From positions 1,674,001-1,738,000 of the forward strand of contig NZ_CP123897.1 in NCBI RefSeq assembly GCF_029910655.1: a stretch of 64,000 nt of DNA. Reading direction: 5' to 3'. Source of the stretch: Methylomonas sp. UP202. GTDB lineage: Bacteria > Pseudomonadota > Gammaproteobacteria > Methylococcales > Methylomonadaceae. How positions within the stretch are numbered: the stretch's first letter is position 1; every line of letters begins with the position of its first letter. Made by a program: the position numbers and the translations under genes. Positions 42,031 to 50,731 of the stretch are shown one piece after another. The notes below the pieces were generated by a model, which had not been told where the DNA came from, did not search any database, and worked only from the letters and a program-made list of their open reading frames with translations.

Positions 42031-43737
42031 ATGAAACTGTCCATAGATAAACCGCATCTTCAGCAACTGTTGACCGCTCACCCGCGCCTGACCGGCTTGA
42101 ACGAGCAACTGCGTTTCGGCAATAAAGCCCAGGTGTTTTACGATCAACTCAGCGGCGTCGAGATGGAAACGTTGGCCGGCATTTACGCCCAACAAGGCGA
42201 GAGTTATCAGCAACAGGCCGCGCTGCTGACGGCGTTGCGGCAAGCCTTAACCGACGATCACCGCCGCTACGGACCGGACGATCTGGAAAAACTGCTGCCG
42301 GACATCGCGAGCTACTTGTTGGACGGCGCGATTCACGGCTGGTTGTTTCACGTCGAGCATGGCGGCCGAACCCTGGCTTATTTAGTTACCCGCGTCGATT
42401 ACACGCCGCCGGGCGAGGAAGAAGCCGGGCGCATCCTGATCGAATTAAAAGCCAACAGCAAGGGCAAGATCGCGATCGAAACTCTGGTAATCCGCGGCAA
42501 GGATCTGGACCACAAAACCATTCCCGAAATCTTTGCCGGCAAGGGTTATTTGAAGGAGACCGCCGAGTTGACGGCCAGTTACGATGACGCGGCTGCCCGC
42601 TATTTCGATTGGCGCGGCCGCTACGGCGAGCAATTCTCCGGTTGGGGTACCGGCATCTACGCCGAAGACCCGACCGCCAGCCACCGCAGCAACGACTGGA
42701 CCCGCAAAAATACCGTGGTGCTGTCGTCCGGCGGCGGCGCGTGCCGGCTGGTCAACGACGAAAATATCCTCAGCGATCGGGTGCTGACGCTGGAAGCCTC
42801 CGGCGACATCTTCGGCACCTATTTGCGCAAGGCGGGCAAAAGCATGCGCTACGACAGCAAGACCGAGAGCCAGATGGAGCAAGCCAAGGCCGAGGTCGGC
42901 AAGGGCTTGTTCACCGAACTGCCGGTACACGGCTACATCCTGCTGTTTCATTTGGAGTTGCACCACCACGTCTGGGTCCATGTCGACGATATGCAGCCCT
43001 ACGTCTACCAGCCGGAACTGAAACAAAAGCTGATCCTGCCGCCCGAGCAAACCGATTTGATCGACATCTTGACCGCCGAAATGGACATGCTGATGGACGA
43101 CATCGTCGAAGGCAAATCCGGCGGCACCACGGTGCTGTGCGCCGGGCCGGCCGGGGTCGGCAAGACCCTGACCGCCGAGGTGTATTCGGAAATCATCAAG
43201 CGGCCGCTGTATCGGGTGCATTCCGGCCAGCTCGGCTTGAACGTCGCCGAAATGGAGAAAACCCTGAAGGAAACCCTGATCCGCGCCCAGCGCTGGGGCG
43301 CGGTGATGCTGATCGACGAGGCCGACGTTTACATCAAAAAGCGCGCCGATAATCTGGCTTCCAATGCCGTGGTTGGCGTGTTCCTGCGGGTGCTGGAATA
43401 CTTCAACGGCCTGCTGTTTCTGACCACCAACCGGGTCGACGACATCGACGAAGCCATTATTTCCCGCTGCATCGCGATGATTCGCTACCACTCGCCGAAC
43501 AGCGCCGACCGCCGCAAAATCTGGAAGGTGATGACCGAACAGTTCTCGCTGCCGATCTCGGACGAACTGATCGAGCAATTGGTGGACTTGTTCCCCGGCG
43601 CCTCCGGCCGCGATATCAAGGGCCTGACCAAACTGGTCGCCAAGTTCTGTATGCAAAAACAACTGGCGCCGACCTTGGATGTATTTATTCGCTGCTCGGT
43701 GTTTAGGGGCTTGGAGTTGGTGGGGGAGGCGGCTTGA
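42031..43737 (+). CDS. AAA-family ATPase with large unassigned N-terminal region
   Basis: The 568-residue protein has a C-terminal AAA module. Walker A is GPAGVGKT (372-379), Walker B is VMLIDEAD (about 425-432), and a sensor region LLFLTTNRVDDIDEAIISR follows. The first 340 residues are not recognised; their end (GYILLFHLELHHHVWVHVDD) resembles the region before the AAA module in some fungal-type AAA proteins. It probably remodels or unfolds a protein partner. A good AAGGA site precedes the ATG. It stands alone between unrelated genes, so no partner is visible. Confidence 0.75.
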   Translation: MKLSIDKPHLQQLLTAHPRLTGLNEQLRFGNKAQVFYDQLSGVEMETLAGIYAQQGESYQQQAALLTALRQALTDDHRRYGPDDLEKLLPDIASYLLDGAIHGWLFHVEHGGRTLAYLVTRVDYTPPGEEEAGRILIELKANSKGKIAIETLVIRGKDLDHKTIPEIFAGKGYLKETAELTASYDDAAARYFDWRGRYGEQFSGWGTGIYAEDPTASHRSNDWTRKNTVVLSSGGGACRLVNDENILSDRVLTLEASGDIFGTYLRKAGKSMRYDSKTESQMEQAKAEVGKGLFTELPVHGYILLFHLELHHHVWVHVDDMQPYVYQPELKQKLILPPEQTDLIDILTAEMDMLMDDIVEGKSGGTTVLCAGPAGVGKTLTAEVYSEIIKRPLYRVHSGQLGLNVAEMEKTLKETLIRAQRWGAVMLIDEADVYIKKRADNLASNAVVGVFLRVLEYFNGLLFLTTNRVDDIDEAIISRCIAMIRYHSPNSADRRKIWKVMTEQFSLPISDELIEQLVDLFPGASGRDIKGLTKLVAKFCMQKQLAPTLDVFIRCSVFRGLELVGEAA

Positions 43738-43962: not shown

Positions 43963-44715
43963 TTACTGATTTAACGACATTGTATGAAGAAGAGTCCAGA
44001 CATCTTGTTCTACGGATTCAAGACGGGCCTCATTCCCGGCGTCCACGGCACATTCAGCCGCTATAAAAAATGTCGGCGAATTGTTCTTGGCTTGGTTCGA
44101 ACCGATTATCGCGGTAATAGTTAATGCCGCCGATCTATCAGCCGTATCCTTGCCGAACCAATGTTTGTGCGTGGTTTGCCAGCCGTTGTATTGGCCATTC
44201 AGTTTAATAGCCTCGAAAGCAATTCGTATCGCCCGGTCGGAACGTTTGGAATCGCAGCAAGGAACCGATAGGCCGTATTCCAGATAGTGATTGATACCGT
44301 AACCCATCAGGACTCGATTTCTGACGTAAGCAATCTCAGACGCCAGTTTGGCAAAATCCCAAGCGTATCCGACTTCATTGGAGGTGTAGCGTAGCTCTCG
44401 AAACTTACAATCAGCAAGATGGTCGCGCCGTTTCAGCATTAGCAACGACTGGATTCCGCTGTCCGGCGGATGGTTTGCAGAGATTCTATTTAACTCGGCA
44501 AGGTATTGCGAAGTATCGTCATACCAGTGGCCGGGGACGGTCAATTTGACGATGCCTAGACGATCACTAACACGGGCCGGTTGCAACTGGGTACACGCTG
44601 ACAGGATCAAGACCGCAATCGCAAAGATTAAGTAAGAATATCCCAAAGCGATCAACAGGTTAGCGTGTTGAGCGGGCGGGAATATGAAATTGTCCCGAGT
44701 TTCTCGCGGGAGCAC
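43963..44715 (-). CDS. Hypothetical lipoprotein, last gene of the Sel1 cluster
   Basis: The family is not recognised. The 250-residue product has a hydrophobic segment ending LILSAC, a lipobox, with the Cys near residue 41. The mature part has a mixed alpha/beta look (IVKLTVPGHWYDDTSQYLAE and SPTFFIAAECAVDAGNE). The ATG at 44715 makes it overlap the upstream lipoprotein gene by 56 bases. A later TTG near 44658 would remove the overlap and give a shorter signal sequence. The base composition is visibly lower in GC than the flanking genes. Confidence 0.6.
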   Translation of the reverse strand: MLPRETRDNFIFPPAQHANLLIALGYSYLIFAIAVLILSACTQLQPARVSDRLGIVKLTVPGHWYDDTSQYLAELNRISANHPPDSGIQSLLMLKRRDHLADCKFRELRYTSNEVGYAWDFAKLASEIAYVRNRVLMGYGINHYLEYGLSVPCCDSKRSDRAIRIAFEAIKLNGQYNGWQTTHKHWFGKDTADRSAALTITAIIGSNQAKNNSPTFFIAAECAVDAGNEARLESVEQDVWTLLHTMSLNQ

Positions 44716-45334
44716 TTACAGCGTTACTATCCTCGATAAGCGGGATATCGGAAAACTCGGACTTGGAATCGATTGCCGCTTTCAAGTCTGGCTTTAGATT
44801 AGCGTAATCGGATTGTCTGTAGGATCGATTCCCGCATTCGGTGTTGTATTTTCCATTCAGTAGGTTCAGGGCGTTTGCCTTGTCGTTATAGGCGTTGACG
44901 GCTGCGTTATATGTCTTGATATCATCGTGATTTATTTGGATGCGTCGGTTGAAATCGTTCACGGCCTTGATGCTGTCGGCTTGTATACGTCCGCGTAGCT
45001 CATCCAACGCTTGAGTTTGTTCGTACAATTCCGTTTTTTCAGCCGCGAGTTTGACATTTTCCTTTTGCAAGGCCACTGAATCTTCCTTGGCTTTAATAAT
45101 ACGTTGGGCGCAAGCAACTAACTCGGATGCAGTCATCGGTTTCACTCCCGCTACCGATTGGCGAGATACGGCGTTACCGAGACTGGGCATGGCGACGACA
45201 TCCGAATCAAGAGCGGTTGGAGCGGGCGCCTTGGTTGGAGGAGCACTGCAAGCGGAGAGTAGGCCGCTGAATATTAAGGTAAGCCAATATCGTATCTGCG
45301 TTTGCCGCTGTGTTTCAGGGCGATAAATTGTCAT
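44660..45334 (-). CDS. Hypothetical coiled-coil lipoprotein
   Basis: The family is not recognised. The 224-residue protein has a signal sequence with lipobox LLSAC near residue 29. A long helical stretch (about residues 75-150, KAKEDSVALQKENVKLAAEK and onwards) probably forms a coiled coil in the periplasm. Two Cys residues in the mature part (VACAQ and TECGN) could pair. The ATG overlaps the stop of the Sel1-repeat gene by four bases, so it is translated as part of that operon. Confidence 0.62.
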   Translation of the reverse strand: MTIYRPETQRQTQIRYWLTLIFSGLLSACSAPPTKAPAPTALDSDVVAMPSLGNAVSRQSVAGVKPMTASELVACAQRIIKAKEDSVALQKENVKLAAEKTELYEQTQALDELRGRIQADSIKAVNDFNRRIQINHDDIKTYNAAVNAYNDKANALNLLNGKYNTECGNRSYRQSDYANLKPDLKAAIDSKSEFSDIPLIEDSNAVSAPARNSGQFHIPARSTR

Positions 45335-47457
45335 ATCGGGAGGTCGCGTTGTTGGATATTGGGATCAATGTCCGGGAAATAACTACGGTCTTTTTTGATT
45401 TTGAAGTCATTGGAATCGTCATCTTCGGCAAACTCGATTCGGTACCTTGTAGGTACATCGGTGAATCTACCGTTTTGCAACAGCAACAATTGTTGGACCG
45501 CAGGTTCATAACCTTGTTTCGCCGCCAACGTTGTCCATCGAATCGCTTGCTCTACATCCATGGTTTCCACACCTATACCTTGCGCATACATTAGCCCAAG
45601 GTTGTATTGCGCGAATGCATTGCCTTGTTCCGCCGCGGCAGTGAGATAGGTCACGGCTTTGCTCTCGTCTTTATCGGTGCCACGTCCCTCTAAATACATC
45701 ATGCCCAATAAAAACCGGGCTTTTAGATTGCCGTGATCGGCGGCGGTTTTTGCCCATTTGAATGCGGCCTGTTGATCCTTGGACCAGAAATAGCGAGATA
45801 ACCGATATTCAGCCTCCGAGTCGCCAGCGTTGGCTTGCTCAATCAACCAATCCAGTTGAAAAATCTCGTAAATTAAGCCGGTTTTGTCGTTTTTAGCTTC
45901 GATTAAAACCTGGGAACTACTGGCGGGAAACGGCCCTTTCCAGTTCGTCTGGACTTCATCACCATTCTTGGAATGTACGATGACTTTTTCGATCGGAGCG
46001 AGCTGGAAAACGCCGCCGTTTGCGCGTTGTTTTTCCGCCATGGCATACCATTTTTCGGACTCCTTCGTATCGATTGGGACGCCTAAACCGGCTCGATACA
46101 TCGAGCCTAAGTCTTCTTGGGCGGAAGCGTGCCCTTGTTCAGCGGCGGCCCTTATCCACTTTACCGCTCGCGAAAGGTCTTGTTTAATTTCCACGCCATC
46201 GCGCAATAACAAACCCAGGCGATACTGGGCATCGGCAAAATCTTGCTTTGCGGCGAGTTCGAGCCAACGCGCGGCTTCGATTTCGCTACGGGGAACGCCG
46301 TTGCCTTCCAGGTGCAGCAAGCCCAAACTTGCTTGCGCCATCTTGTGGTTTTGCTCGGCGGCCAGACGGTACCATTTGACGGCTTCTTCAACATCCATCG
46401 GCACGCCTGCGCCAATTCTGTAACAGTTTCCCAAATTGTTTTGCGCTTTGGCTAAACCCTGGTCGGCCGCTTTGCGATACCAGTCCGCGGCCTGTTTGGG
46501 GTCGATTGCGATGCCTTTCCCCTGTTCGTAAATCACGCCCAGCGCGGCCTGTGAGTCAGGTAGTACGGCGGCTTTGAGGTACCATTTACGAGCTTCGACA
46601 TAATCTTGATTTACCCCTTTGCCTTCAAAATACATGGTGCCTAAATTCTGTTGCGCCGCCGTGTAACCTTGCTCGGCAGCCGAACGAAATAAGGCTTCGG
46701 CTTCGGAAAAACTTTGTTTTACGCCTTTCCCAAAATAATAGAGCGCTCCCAAATCGGTTTGGGCTTGCGCTAAACCTTGGTTGGCGGACATCCGCAACCA
46801 ACGCACACCTTCGTCAATTTGATTGCCGTCCCGTAATAAAATACCGAGGTTATATTGAGATTCTTTATGGCCACGCGAGGCGGCAATTCTAAATAGACGA
46901 GCGGCTTCTTGCCGATCGGGATTCAAACCTCGTCCCAACTGAAATAGTATCCCCAGATTGGCGGTGGCGCCCAGATGGCCTCGATCGGCCGCGCTGGCAT
47001 ACCAGCGGCGAGCTTCTTTATAATCTTGATCCACCCCTCGACCTTGATCGAACATGGTCGCCAAAGACATCATGGCTTCAGTAAAGCCATGTTCCGCCGC
47101 CAAGCGATACCAATGCGCCGCTTGCTTTAGATCACTTGCGACGCCAAGTCCCTTGTCGTAAAACACGCCGATGTTATTTTGCGAATCCGGATAGTTTTGC
47201 TCTGCGGCCTGACGGTACCAGTGCAAGGCTTTTTGGTAATTCTGGGTAACGCCCAAACCCATTTGATTCATGACGCCCAAATTGTGTTGTGCTCGTTTGT
47301 CGCCGGATTCCGCCAGAGGAGTCCACAACGTTAACGCAGCGACGTAATCGTTCCGAGCCGCGGCAGCGACCCCGTCTTCAAAATTACCTGCAAAAGCCGG
47401 AGTGGCCAGCGCCAAGAAATAAAGTAACTGGATGGTGTTCTTAGTTAATGTTTTCAC
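45331..47457 (-). CDS. Exported Sel1/TPR-like repeat protein
   Basis: The 708-residue protein has a signal peptide ending in PAFAG and about fifteen Sel1-like repeats of 36 residues. These show the A-x-x-x-L-G-x-x-Y/M-x-x-G-x-G-V signature, for example AQHNLGVMNQMGLGVTQNYQ. About 80 residues between the repeat blocks (near 490-570) contain the non-repeat insertion KVIVHSKNGDEVQTNWKGPF. The tail, after the last repeats, is acidic. Such proteins act as scaffolds for partner proteins. It heads a three-gene cluster with two lipoproteins; the partner is unknown. Confidence 0.8.
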   Translation of the reverse strand: MKTLTKNTIQLLYFLALATPAFAGNFEDGVAAAARNDYVAALTLWTPLAESGDKRAQHNLGVMNQMGLGVTQNYQKALHWYRQAAEQNYPDSQNNIGVFYDKGLGVASDLKQAAHWYRLAAEHGFTEAMMSLATMFDQGRGVDQDYKEARRWYASAADRGHLGATANLGILFQLGRGLNPDRQEAARLFRIAASRGHKESQYNLGILLRDGNQIDEGVRWLRMSANQGLAQAQTDLGALYYFGKGVKQSFSEAEALFRSAAEQGYTAAQQNLGTMYFEGKGVNQDYVEARKWYLKAAVLPDSQAALGVIYEQGKGIAIDPKQAADWYRKAADQGLAKAQNNLGNCYRIGAGVPMDVEEAVKWYRLAAEQNHKMAQASLGLLHLEGNGVPRSEIEAARWLELAAKQDFADAQYRLGLLLRDGVEIKQDLSRAVKWIRAAAEQGHASAQEDLGSMYRAGLGVPIDTKESEKWYAMAEKQRANGGVFQLAPIEKVIVHSKNGDEVQTNWKGPFPASSSQVLIEAKNDKTGLIYEIFQLDWLIEQANAGDSEAEYRLSRYFWSKDQQAAFKWAKTAADHGNLKARFLLGMMYLEGRGTDKDESKAVTYLTAAAEQGNAFAQYNLGLMYAQGIGVETMDVEQAIRWTTLAAKQGYEPAVQQLLLLQNGRFTDVPTRYRIEFAEDDDSNDFKIKKDRSYFPDIDPNIQQRDLPI

Positions 47458-47509: not shown

Positions 47510-47519
47510 GGGGGGGGGG
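47510..47519 (+). repeat. G10 homopolymer tract upstream of the Sel1 gene
   Basis: Ten consecutive G residues lie 53 bases upstream of the Sel1 gene start. Seen from that gene they form a C10 run between the palindrome and the start codon. Long mononucleotide runs are slippage-prone and may change promoter or leader spacing. Confidence 0.85.
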
Positions 47520-47564: not shown

Positions 47565-47789
47565 AAATCGATGACGGCCATGGCTGAAGAGTGCATCGAC
47601 GGTATGCAGATGAGTTCAACGAGCAAGCTCTGGCAAAAGTCTACAGCTGAGGCAAAGGAACGATTCAAGCGATTGTCGACGAGTCAAACCTAAGCAATTT
47701 TCCGAACGCTAAAAGACTTGCTCGCGGTAGTCCAAGCAAAACAGGGATTAAGCTCAGGGAGAACGATTGGATCAACAAATTGACAAGTT

Positions 47790-47995: not shown

Positions 47996-48280
47996 AACGG
48001 GTTGATATCAAAGATCGTTTTGATCCTTACAACCCGGATTTATCGGTGTCGGACTAGCTGTTAAGACGATTTGGAGCGCATTTGACTGTCGAATTGACAG
48101 TTTGCGTTTGGGCTGGAGTTAAAGCAACGACGTCGTAAATAAAATCAAGCTGTTATCTGCTGTTTTTTGTGTTGGATTTCGCAATGTTGATGTTTACGTT
48201 TGAAATTCAAAGGTAAAGCAAAATCCCGGCCAGCATTAACGATGATTTACTTTTCAACGCACTAGAATGGTGGGCACGCG

Positions 48281-48289
48281 TGTTACAAT
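48281..48289 (+). promoter_or_regulatory. Extended -10 promoter of bamA
   Basis: TGTTACAAT is an extended -10 (TGn plus TACAAT), 30 bases upstream of the chosen bamA start. No good -35 or sigma-E motif (GGAACTT) was found upstream. Confidence 0.4.
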
Positions 48290-48319
48290 CGCCGCCATTT
48301 ATACATCTTGGTTGAGTGC

Positions 48320-50653
48320 GTGAAGAAAAATCCGCTATTTCAAATACTGTTGCTGAGTGCCTTGGCCGGCAAATTGGCCCACGCCGGCAGCTTCGTAGTT
48401 GATGACATCCAGGTCAAGGGATTGCAACGGATTTCGGCGGGTACGGTATACAACTATCTGCCGGTATCGGTTGGCGAAACCTTCACCGACGAAAAACAAG
48501 CCTCGGCGATCCGCTCCTTGTTCAATACCGGTTTTTTCAAGGACATCACGCTGGAGCGGGACGGCAATACCTTGATCGTGACCGTGGTCGAACGGCCGTC
48601 GGTCGCCAAAATCGTCATCGAAGGCAACAAGGACATCAAGAAGGAAGACTTGACCGAAGCCTTGAAGAAAATCGGTCTGGCGGAAGGCAAGGTCTACAAC
48701 AAACAAGTATTGGACAAGGTCGAGCAGGAGATGCGCCGCCAATATTTCAGCCACGGTAAATACGGCTTGAAGATCAAGACCGAGGTCACCGATCTGACCC
48801 GCAACCGGGTCGGCATACGCATCGAGATTTCCGAGGGCCGGGTGGCCAAGATCAAGCAGATCAACATTGTCGGCAATAAAACCTTCGCCAGTGACGCCTT
48901 ACGCAAGGAATTCGAACTCAGTACCACCAATTTTCTATCTTTTTATTCCAAGGATGACCAGTATTCCAAGCAAAAGTTATCGGCCGATTTGGAAAAGCTG
49001 CGTTCGTATTATCTGGATCGCGGCTACATCAATTTTTCGATCGAATCGACCCAGGTCGATATCACCGCCGATAAGAAGGAAATCTACATTACGATCAACG
49101 TCAAGGAAGGCGAGGTGTATACGCTGGAAAAGGTCAAATTGTCCGGCGAGTTGATCGTGCCGCCCGAGGACTTGATCAAACTGGTCAGGGTCGGGCCTGG
49201 GGAAATTTTCTCTCGTAAAAACGCCACCGAGACCTCGAAGGCGATTTCCGACCGGTTGGGCGACGAAGGTTATACCTTCGCCAACGTCAATATGGTGCCG
49301 GAAATCAACGAGCAATCCAAAACGGTGGCGATGACTTTTTTCGTCGATCCGGGTAAACGGGTTTACGTCAGGCGGATTAACGTGAAGGGCAACACCAAGA
49401 CCCGCGACGAAGTGATCCGTCGCGAGGCCCGGCAAATGGAGTCCAGTTGGGCGGCTAGCAGTAAGATCGAGCGCACCAAGACTCGTCTGGACCGCTTGGG
49501 CTATTTCGAGGAAGTCGGCGTGGAAACGCCGCCGGTGACCGGCGTGGCCGACCAGATCGACGTCAATTACACCGTCAAGGAAAAAGCCTCCGGTAACTTG
49601 CAAGCCGGTATCGGTTACTCGCAGGTGCAGGGCATCATCTTCAACGCCAACGTGTCGCAGGACAACATCTTCGGTACCGGTAAGCGGCTGGATTTCGCGT
49701 TCAACAACAGTAGCATCTTGACCCGTTACAACTTGGGTTTCACCGATCCTTACTACACGCTGGACGGTGTGTCGCTCGGTTACAATTTGGGCTATACCTC
49801 GCGTAACGCCTATGCCGCCAACTTGGCTGCGTATAACACGACGATCACCAATGCCGGCGTCAACTTCGGCATTCCGCTAAACGAATTCGACAGGGTGGGT
49901 TTCGACCTGGAATTGAAACGGACCGAAATCGAAAATACCGCGTATTCGTCCGATACCATTCTGAAGTTTCTCGGTTACACCAAATATACCAGCGGTCAAA
50001 TTCGCTCGAAAAGCTTTACCAGTTTGTCGACCTCGGCCGGCTGGACCCACGATACGCTGGATCGGGCTACCTTCGCGCATAGCGGCGGCCAGCAGCGGAT
50101 TTCGGCGTTGGCGACGATACCGGGTAGCGATCTCGAGTACTACAAGGTCGGCTATAAGCACCAACACTACTTTCCGCTATCCAACGATTTCACGTTCCGC
50201 TTATTGGGCGAGGTGGCTCACGGTGGCGGCTACGGCAGCACCGACGGCTTGCCGTTCTTCGAAAACTATTTCGCCGGCGGTACCGGCGACGTGCGCGGCT
50301 TCATGCAGAATACGCTGGGTGTGATCGACGCGACCACGCTCAACAAGAACGCCTACACCAATCGTCCGATCGGCGGCGCGACCAAGCTGATCGGTAAGGC
50401 CGAATTGTTTTTCCCGATTCCGTTTTTGAGCGACGTCAAGTCGGTGCGGATCGGCTCGTTCGTCGATGCCGGTACCTTGTCGCCGGGCTTGAGCACCGGC
50501 GATCTCCGCAAATATTTCCGCTACTCGGTGGGCTTGTCCGGGGAATGGCTGTCGCCGTTCGGCGCGTTGGCGGTCAGCGTGGCTCAACCGCTCAATTCCG
50601 AGTCTGGAGATAGAACTCAGGCCTTCCAGTTCACGTTCGGCTCGGGATTTTAG
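48320..50653 (+). CDS. bamA: Outer-membrane protein assembly factor BamA
   Basis: BamA inserts beta-barrel proteins into the outer membrane. The 777-residue protein has a signal peptide ending LAHA and five POTRA domains at about residues 22-420. A C-terminal Omp85 barrel ends in FGSGF with terminal Phe. The loop motif VRGF (GDVRGFMQNT) is in the barrel as expected. No ATG is available; the GTG at 48320 gives a standard signal peptide, while a TTG 12 bases upstream is an alternative. The usual upstream rseP/dxr genes are missing. Confidence 0.96.
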   Translation: MKKNPLFQILLLSALAGKLAHAGSFVVDDIQVKGLQRISAGTVYNYLPVSVGETFTDEKQASAIRSLFNTGFFKDITLERDGNTLIVTVVERPSVAKIVIEGNKDIKKEDLTEALKKIGLAEGKVYNKQVLDKVEQEMRRQYFSHGKYGLKIKTEVTDLTRNRVGIRIEISEGRVAKIKQINIVGNKTFASDALRKEFELSTTNFLSFYSKDDQYSKQKLSADLEKLRSYYLDRGYINFSIESTQVDITADKKEIYITINVKEGEVYTLEKVKLSGELIVPPEDLIKLVRVGPGEIFSRKNATETSKAISDRLGDEGYTFANVNMVPEINEQSKTVAMTFFVDPGKRVYVRRINVKGNTKTRDEVIRREARQMESSWAASSKIERTKTRLDRLGYFEEVGVETPPVTGVADQIDVNYTVKEKASGNLQAGIGYSQVQGIIFNANVSQDNIFGTGKRLDFAFNNSSILTRYNLGFTDPYYTLDGVSLGYNLGYTSRNAYAANLAAYNTTITNAGVNFGIPLNEFDRVGFDLELKRTEIENTAYSSDTILKFLGYTKYTSGQIRSKSFTSLSTSAGWTHDTLDRATFAHSGGQQRISALATIPGSDLEYYKVGYKHQHYFPLSNDFTFRLLGEVAHGGGYGSTDGLPFFENYFAGGTGDVRGFMQNTLGVIDATTLNKNAYTNRPIGGATKLIGKAELFFPIPFLSDVKSVRIGSFVDAGTLSPGLSTGDLRKYFRYSVGLSGEWLSPFGALAVSVAQPLNSESGDRTQAFQFTFGSGF

Positions 50654-50682: not shown

Positions 50683-50731
50683 CGGGCTTGCGTTCTGTCT
50701 TAACACAATTTAACCGGAGATGGTTATTACC

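Follow-up and report, generated by a model that had tools for sequence, protein, structure and literature searches.

The window analysed here, a stretch of 64,000 nucleotides from Methylomonas sp. UP202 (contig NZ_CP123897.1, positions 1,674,001 to 1,738,000), contains three minus-strand genes which encode a large exported Sel1-repeat protein and two putative lipoproteins, referred to in the following as lipoproteins A and B. The trio is enclosed by two plus-strand genes, an AAA+ ATPase gene (42031-43737) on the lipoprotein B side and bamA (48308-50653) on the Sel1 side. A set of three overlapping genes had been predicted here from the sequence alone, and all three were recovered as long open reading frames (ORFs) at their predicted coordinates. 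The Sel1 gene (45331..47457, 708 aa) is supported by its ORF, by Pfam and by an alignment with Methylomonas sp. WSC-6, in which an ATG start aligns with the GTG start of the window gene. It is followed by the gene for lipoprotein A (44660..45334, 224 aa) and the gene for lipoprotein B, which spans 43963..44715 (250 aa) or 43963..44655 (230 aa), depending on the start codon.

The predicted 4-base overlap between the Sel1 stop and the lipoprotein A start (ATGA, 45331..45334) is real, suggesting translational coupling of the two genes. The second predicted overlap, of 56 bases between the two lipoprotein genes, is present only if lipoprotein B starts at the GTG at 44715, a codon which is not conserved. 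From the alternative TTG at 44655, located 4 bases past the stop of lipoprotein A, no overlap is needed, and the corresponding WSC-6 gene has an ATG start and a 1-base overlap with that stop. As the TTG form has no basic residues ahead of the hydrophobic stretch, both starts were kept as alternatives.

That the trio consists of genuine genes follows from the conserved order in WSC-6 together with the concentration of differences at the third codon position. Between the window and WSC-6 these amount to 0.60, 0.64 and 0.60 at position 3 of the three genes, as compared to 0.30/0.25, 0.34/0.29 and 0.39/0.19 at positions 1/2 (for lipoprotein B over 150 codons). In addition, the nonsynonymous divergence (dN) from Methylomonas koyamae R-45383, which belongs to the same species as the window genome, is lower than the synonymous divergence (dS) in all three genes (dN/dS 0.0055/0.0216, 0.0019/0.0129 and 0.0057/0.0189).

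The Sel1 protein is indeed large and carries an export signal, read by eye with the cleavage site AFA/GNF, as well as 15 stretches matching Pfam PF08238 (E 5e-121, 391 bits versus a cut-off of 30.7). Its membership of PF08238 is plain and does not define its function; its nearest sequence relatives among solved structures are Sel1-repeat proteins too. The signal region (first 26 residues) contains no cysteine and therefore no lipobox of its own. Residues ~480-535 form a poorly conserved stretch and the C-terminal tail, ending in QQRDLPI, is conserved. Scores against the NCBIfam models for AlgK (NF038194, 108.8 bits) and MerG (NF033786, 206.6 bits) fall below the cut-offs of 700 and 350, respectively.

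Some observations concern Sel1 genes more generally or the DNA ahead of this one. By our own count, 8 Sel1-bearing genes exist in the 5.68 Mb of the window genome. Two Sel1 genes of 586 aa each (G000:C1:3614577-3616091 (+) and 4028451-4029965 (-)) have identical repeat scores and lie ~0.4 Mb apart in opposite orientation, suggesting a recent inverted duplication as their origin. A run of 10 C on the minus strand (47510..47519), roughly 50 bases ahead of the Sel1 start codon, corresponds to 8 C, along with other changes, in strain R-45383; such a length-variable tract could affect expression. A promoter-like palindrome seen by eye upstream of the gene was dropped, being not kept in WSC-6.

Both smaller proteins had been predicted to be unrecognised lipoproteins, which agrees with our results. 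The lipoboxes LLSAC (lipoprotein A, Cys29) and LILSAC (lipoprotein B) were read by eye, and the lipid cysteine is kept in 10 of 10 aligned members of the A family and, for lipoprotein B, in WSC-6. Profile searches gave neither protein a Pfam or NCBIfam match above cut-off, and lipoprotein B remained without a Pfam hit even when E values up to 10 were admitted. The lipid cysteine is followed by serine in A and threonine in B. According to the +2 rule of the E. coli Lol system, the absence of an aspartate at this position means sorting to the outer membrane, which would thus be the predicted location of both.

Homologs of lipoprotein A were found in 6 of 37 genomes of the genus and in 13 of 237 genomes of the taxonomic family, 11 of them strong; the order (13 of 311 genomes) yielded the same 11 strong matches. 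The 7 matches among the 369 genomes of a class sample comprise the window's own, two convincing distant ones in genomes G473 and G570 and four near threshold, so that the A family has hardly any members beyond this taxonomic family. The count of 11 excludes G473 (8e-13) and G570 (5e-8), which have the appearance of distant exported relatives. Dropped as weak were G030 (1.9e-4), G097 (4.3e-4), G068 and G231, as well as G342, G353, G365 and G596 of the class sample with E near 1e-3. Lipoprotein A thus apparently represents an undescribed lipoprotein family, present in 11 genomes and not in Pfam.

Residues common to the 10 aligned members include L72, C75, F128-N129, N150, C167, R170 and D176, among others. 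A cysteine pair corresponding to C75 and C167 is found exactly 92 residues apart in all 10 and in a second copy in genome G178; apart from the lipid cysteine, the mature protein has no others. While identity to the window protein goes down to 25%, this spacing is invariant. An AlphaFold2 model based on four sequences predicts a hairpin formed by helices 69-114 and 122-168, in which the predicted local distance difference test (pLDDT) score averages 72.7 for the whole protein and reaches about 80-94 between residues 61 and 190. A disulphide between Cys75 and Cys167 would be expected to close the base of this hairpin. A Foldseek search with the model gave no PDB match at E <= 0.001. The best VIA-align hits (Z 9.6), to unrelated helical bundles, fall below the tool's meaningful level for helical models and were taken as a shared arrangement, not kinship. 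In the searches as a whole, weak hits to LmuB, PtuA, Mu Gam-like, MRP-S28, Bag6, Dor1, APG6, FtsB and others were set aside as chance matches due to coiled coils or repeats.

Of the two distant relatives, the one in G570 (L082:1240-1917) is exported, apparently non-lipidated, and retains the FN/YN pattern, but its likely cysteine pair is 105 residues apart instead of 92; the A family may therefore be wider than described above. The ORF of the other, in G473, contains only one cysteine.

Lipoprotein B is rarer, occurring in 3 of 37 genomes of the genus and 3 of 237 of the taxonomic family. The three matches in the class sample of 369 are the window's own, a clear but distant one in genome G429 (E 1.4e-28) and a weak one in G449 (E 0.008), which was dropped. 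In G429, which belongs to another family of the class, the B domain makes up the C-terminal region of an exported protein of 353 aa (L066:1453-2514), next to a gene which we take to resemble recR. Two cysteines of lipoprotein B are kept in its distant homolog. An AlphaFold2 model from three sequences reached a mean pLDDT of 39.7, and a profile search of solved structures returned chance-level matches only (best E 0.15). The pattern of strands and helices may hint at a PsbP/Mog1/DcrB-like fold, for which an alpha/beta sandwich would be expected.

Conservation of all three genes at this site throughout the genus, which the original prediction had named as the outcome speaking against it, was not found. 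The whole trio is present in 3 of 37 genus genomes, namely the window genome, R-45383 (G005) and WSC-6 (G017). A Sel1 match at E <= 1e-60 exists in 4 of the 37, one of which (G013, 38% identity over 342 aa) was set aside as a different Sel1 protein. In WSC-6 the trio has the same order, a different site and a protein identity to the window of about 50-59%; it adjoins a DIMCO/Nitro_FeMo-Co gene there, and its lipoprotein B is split across two contig ends. Neither lipoprotein B nor the orthologous Sel1 protein occurs in the close relatives G002, G004, G006 and G007, in which the AAA gene is 95% identical.

The composition of the trio had been said to differ from that of the flanks, which holds for codon usage but for plain GC only in part. 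The GC content at third codon positions (GC3) is 0.532 for Sel1, 0.509 for lipoprotein A and 0.532 for lipoprotein B, the three lowest values of the 58 window ORFs (a mechanical list of ORFs of >=100 aa that includes some spurious frames), and codon-usage scores are low as well. bamA, beside the trio, has a typical GC3 of 0.739. The zone of low plain GC, on the other hand, spans ~43.5-51.5 kb and so exceeds the trio, including for example an OmpH-like gene at 50720 with 48.6% GC. The WSC-6 trio also has a GC3 below that of its neighbours.

The trio lies at a break in gene order, because here the AAA gene has bamA as its neighbour on the other side of the trio. In relatives, 6 of 7 stretches upstream of bamA include flavocytochrome-c-type, SpoU methylase and RNase R genes (the seventh, from WSC-6, ends at a contig end), and 3 of 5 stretches beyond the AAA gene (G007, G002 and G004) have a flavodoxin gene on its 3' side; all these families were named from G007. 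DNA at 48138..48307 (plus strand) is common to the bamA upstream regions of relatives and marks the inner limit of the rearranged segment. Between this limit and the Sel1 gene, positions 47602..47696 (plus strand) are 81% identical to a transposase gene of the HTH_Tnp_1 type, multi-copy in relatives with 13 copies in genome G012, and represent a decayed insertion sequence. This relic supports mobility at the site without demonstrating that it moved the trio.

Taken together, the patchy distribution, the low GC3, the transposase relic and the gene-order break beside bamA favour an accessory, mobile set, and the trio is probably horizontally mobile. The earlier suggestion of an arrival by transfer is upheld to this extent; a donor was not found, as neither lipoprotein A nor B had a match in plasmid searches and homologs of A hardly occur outside this taxonomic family. 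Differential loss may account for the patchiness instead of transfer. A broader version of this view, that these are native envelope genes, ancestral and fast-evolving, which drifted to lower GC and were lost from most species while the relic and the break are coincidental, we regard as unlikely without being negligible. The near confinement of the A family would fit it, as would the extension of low plain GC over bamA and the OmpH-like gene and the low GC3 in WSC-6, as if composition tracked the gene and not the host. However, two lineages carry the trio at different genomic sites, and lipoprotein B and the orthologous Sel1 protein are missing from the close relatives mentioned above.

Further clues come from the genes next to lipoprotein A, whose 11 genomes were reduced to eight arrangements by counting near-syntenic pairs once. 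A Sel1 gene lies upstream in the window species and in WSC-6, a TPR-aspartyl protease gene with a Sel1 gene farther upstream in G006, and a TPR-CHAT gene with a ShlB-type transporter gene in G178 and G182. The remaining four have a TerB-like gene whose match is just under the Pfam cut-off (G019 and G020), a PNPOx-like gene (G201), a gene that Pfam does not match (G200) and, in G202, nothing on the same strand upstream. In 4 of 8 arrangements, the gene directly upstream of A thus codes for a repeat protein (Sel1 or TPR) that is exported or bound to the membrane, a suggestive excess for which the Sel1 count of the genome is the yardstick. In G178 and G182, which belong to one related genus (loci L042:4676-9514 and L045:7036-11883), the order is a large repetitive ORF, a ShlB/FhaC-type transporter, TPR-CHAT and A, the latter twice in G178. 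Searches of the open-licence PubMed Central literature found no paper joining the CHAT domain with two-partner secretion, nor were CHAT, filamentous hemagglutinin, TPR and ShlB, or Methylomonas and Sel1, found together there. In G020, unlike G019, a mutator-family transposase gene (L027:10354-11583) is situated between the A homolog and its TerB-like neighbour.

The earlier idea of a periplasmic scaffold on the outer membrane is compatible with the anatomy of the trio. From these sequence features we infer a scaffold function, and the explanation which we favour, with a probability of roughly 40% for the whole, is that of an accessory, probably mobile envelope module of some Methylomonas, in which lipoproteins fasten a Sel1 scaffold in the periplasm to the outer membrane. 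The Sel1 protein would be exported to the periplasm as a soluble, long superhelical binding scaffold, and both lipoproteins would reach the outer membrane and sit in its inner leaflet. There, the disulphide-stapled helical hairpin of A could serve as a stiff arm that docks or tethers the Sel1 scaffold, with lipoprotein B as a second, globular contact. Such a putative assembly would keep partner proteins, or a polymer, in place at the outer membrane, in the manner of an AlgK-like hub. In support of a module, the order Sel1-A-B is kept at two unlinked loci with all three proteins under constraint.

AlgK, the Sel1 outer-membrane lipoprotein of alginate secretion, which is described as a hub (PMC9384988), is the closest working analogue. 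Like the trio, it combines an exported Sel1 superhelix, whose expected place is the periplasmic face of the outer membrane, with lipid anchoring and an envelope gene set. It differs in that the lipid anchor is on the Sel1 protein itself, whereas here it is on separate proteins, and the window Sel1 protein fails the AlgK model. Lipoproteins A and B are not known components of the alginate system.

Several points weigh against the scaffold module. BamA and the AAA gene are 79% and 83% identical to WSC-6, above the values for the trio, although the lower identity of the latter fits transfer or fast vertical evolution alike. Of the 11 genomes that have A, 8 lack lipoprotein B, and the three proteins therefore need not act as one complex. 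Half of the A arrangements (4 of 8) lack a Sel1 or TPR neighbour, the genome-wide yardstick for the enrichment covers Sel1 but not TPR genes, and the mechanism is generic for Sel1 proteins.

A more specific version, which we consider doubtful, would make lipoprotein A the founder of a new family of outer-membrane lipoproteins, a rigid, disulphide-stapled hairpin dock of fixed length that is swappable among exported Sel1, TPR-CHAT and TPR-aspartyl protease proteins. If true, it would connect CHAT proteases, in the periplasm of methanotroph relatives, with secretion of the two-partner type, provide a testable rule for placing unlipidated periplasmic Sel1/TPR scaffolds at the outer membrane, and turn two cysteines 92 residues apart into a marker for scaffold partners. 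If docking is false, the trio is one more accessory envelope gene set; in addition, two unrecognised lipoprotein families are added to annotation.

Less probable is an orphan immunity cluster, in which the Sel1 protein and the lipoproteins would guard periplasm and membranes against competitors' type VI or contact-dependent effectors. The trio resembles immunity islands in its patchy distribution, its low GC3 and its lipoprotein topology, and there are precedents for Sel1 repeats in accessory DNA: Sel1E of Klebsiella pneumoniae shields E. coli against VgrG4 (PMC7108748), and in an insertion in a type VI secretion system (T6SS) locus, five genes for putative Sel-1 repeat lipoproteins lie together with genes of the phospholipase D family (PMC4068068). 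Sel1 repeats are also listed among polymorphic-toxin architectures in PMC3482391, in passages that do not concern immunity. In contrast to the T6SS proteins, the Sel1 protein here is accompanied by lipoproteins of other families. Its 708 aa and 15 repeat stretches belong to a fixed trio and not to tandem variable copies, and no effector or VgrG was recognised at either site among those flanking ORFs that were scanned with Pfam, which were not all of them.

The trio might also be an accessory of a machine exporting surface proteins or a polymer, with lipoprotein A as the adaptor between a repeat protein in the periplasm and a transporter of the outer membrane, encoded elsewhere in the case of the trio. 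This would suit the position of A after TPR-CHAT and ShlB-type genes in G178/G182 and after the TPR-aspartyl protease in G006, but is improbable, as the other arrangements showed no recognisable transporter beside A, both CHAT loci represent one genus and one arrangement, and the large ORF was called TpsA-like from its repeats only, its sole Pfam match being a sub-threshold one to bactofilin.

Finally, the AAA gene that flanks the trio has parts of its 3' end repeated near the intact gene in G007 and G002 (L077:5235-5448 and L078:5564-5780), with 77-80% identity.

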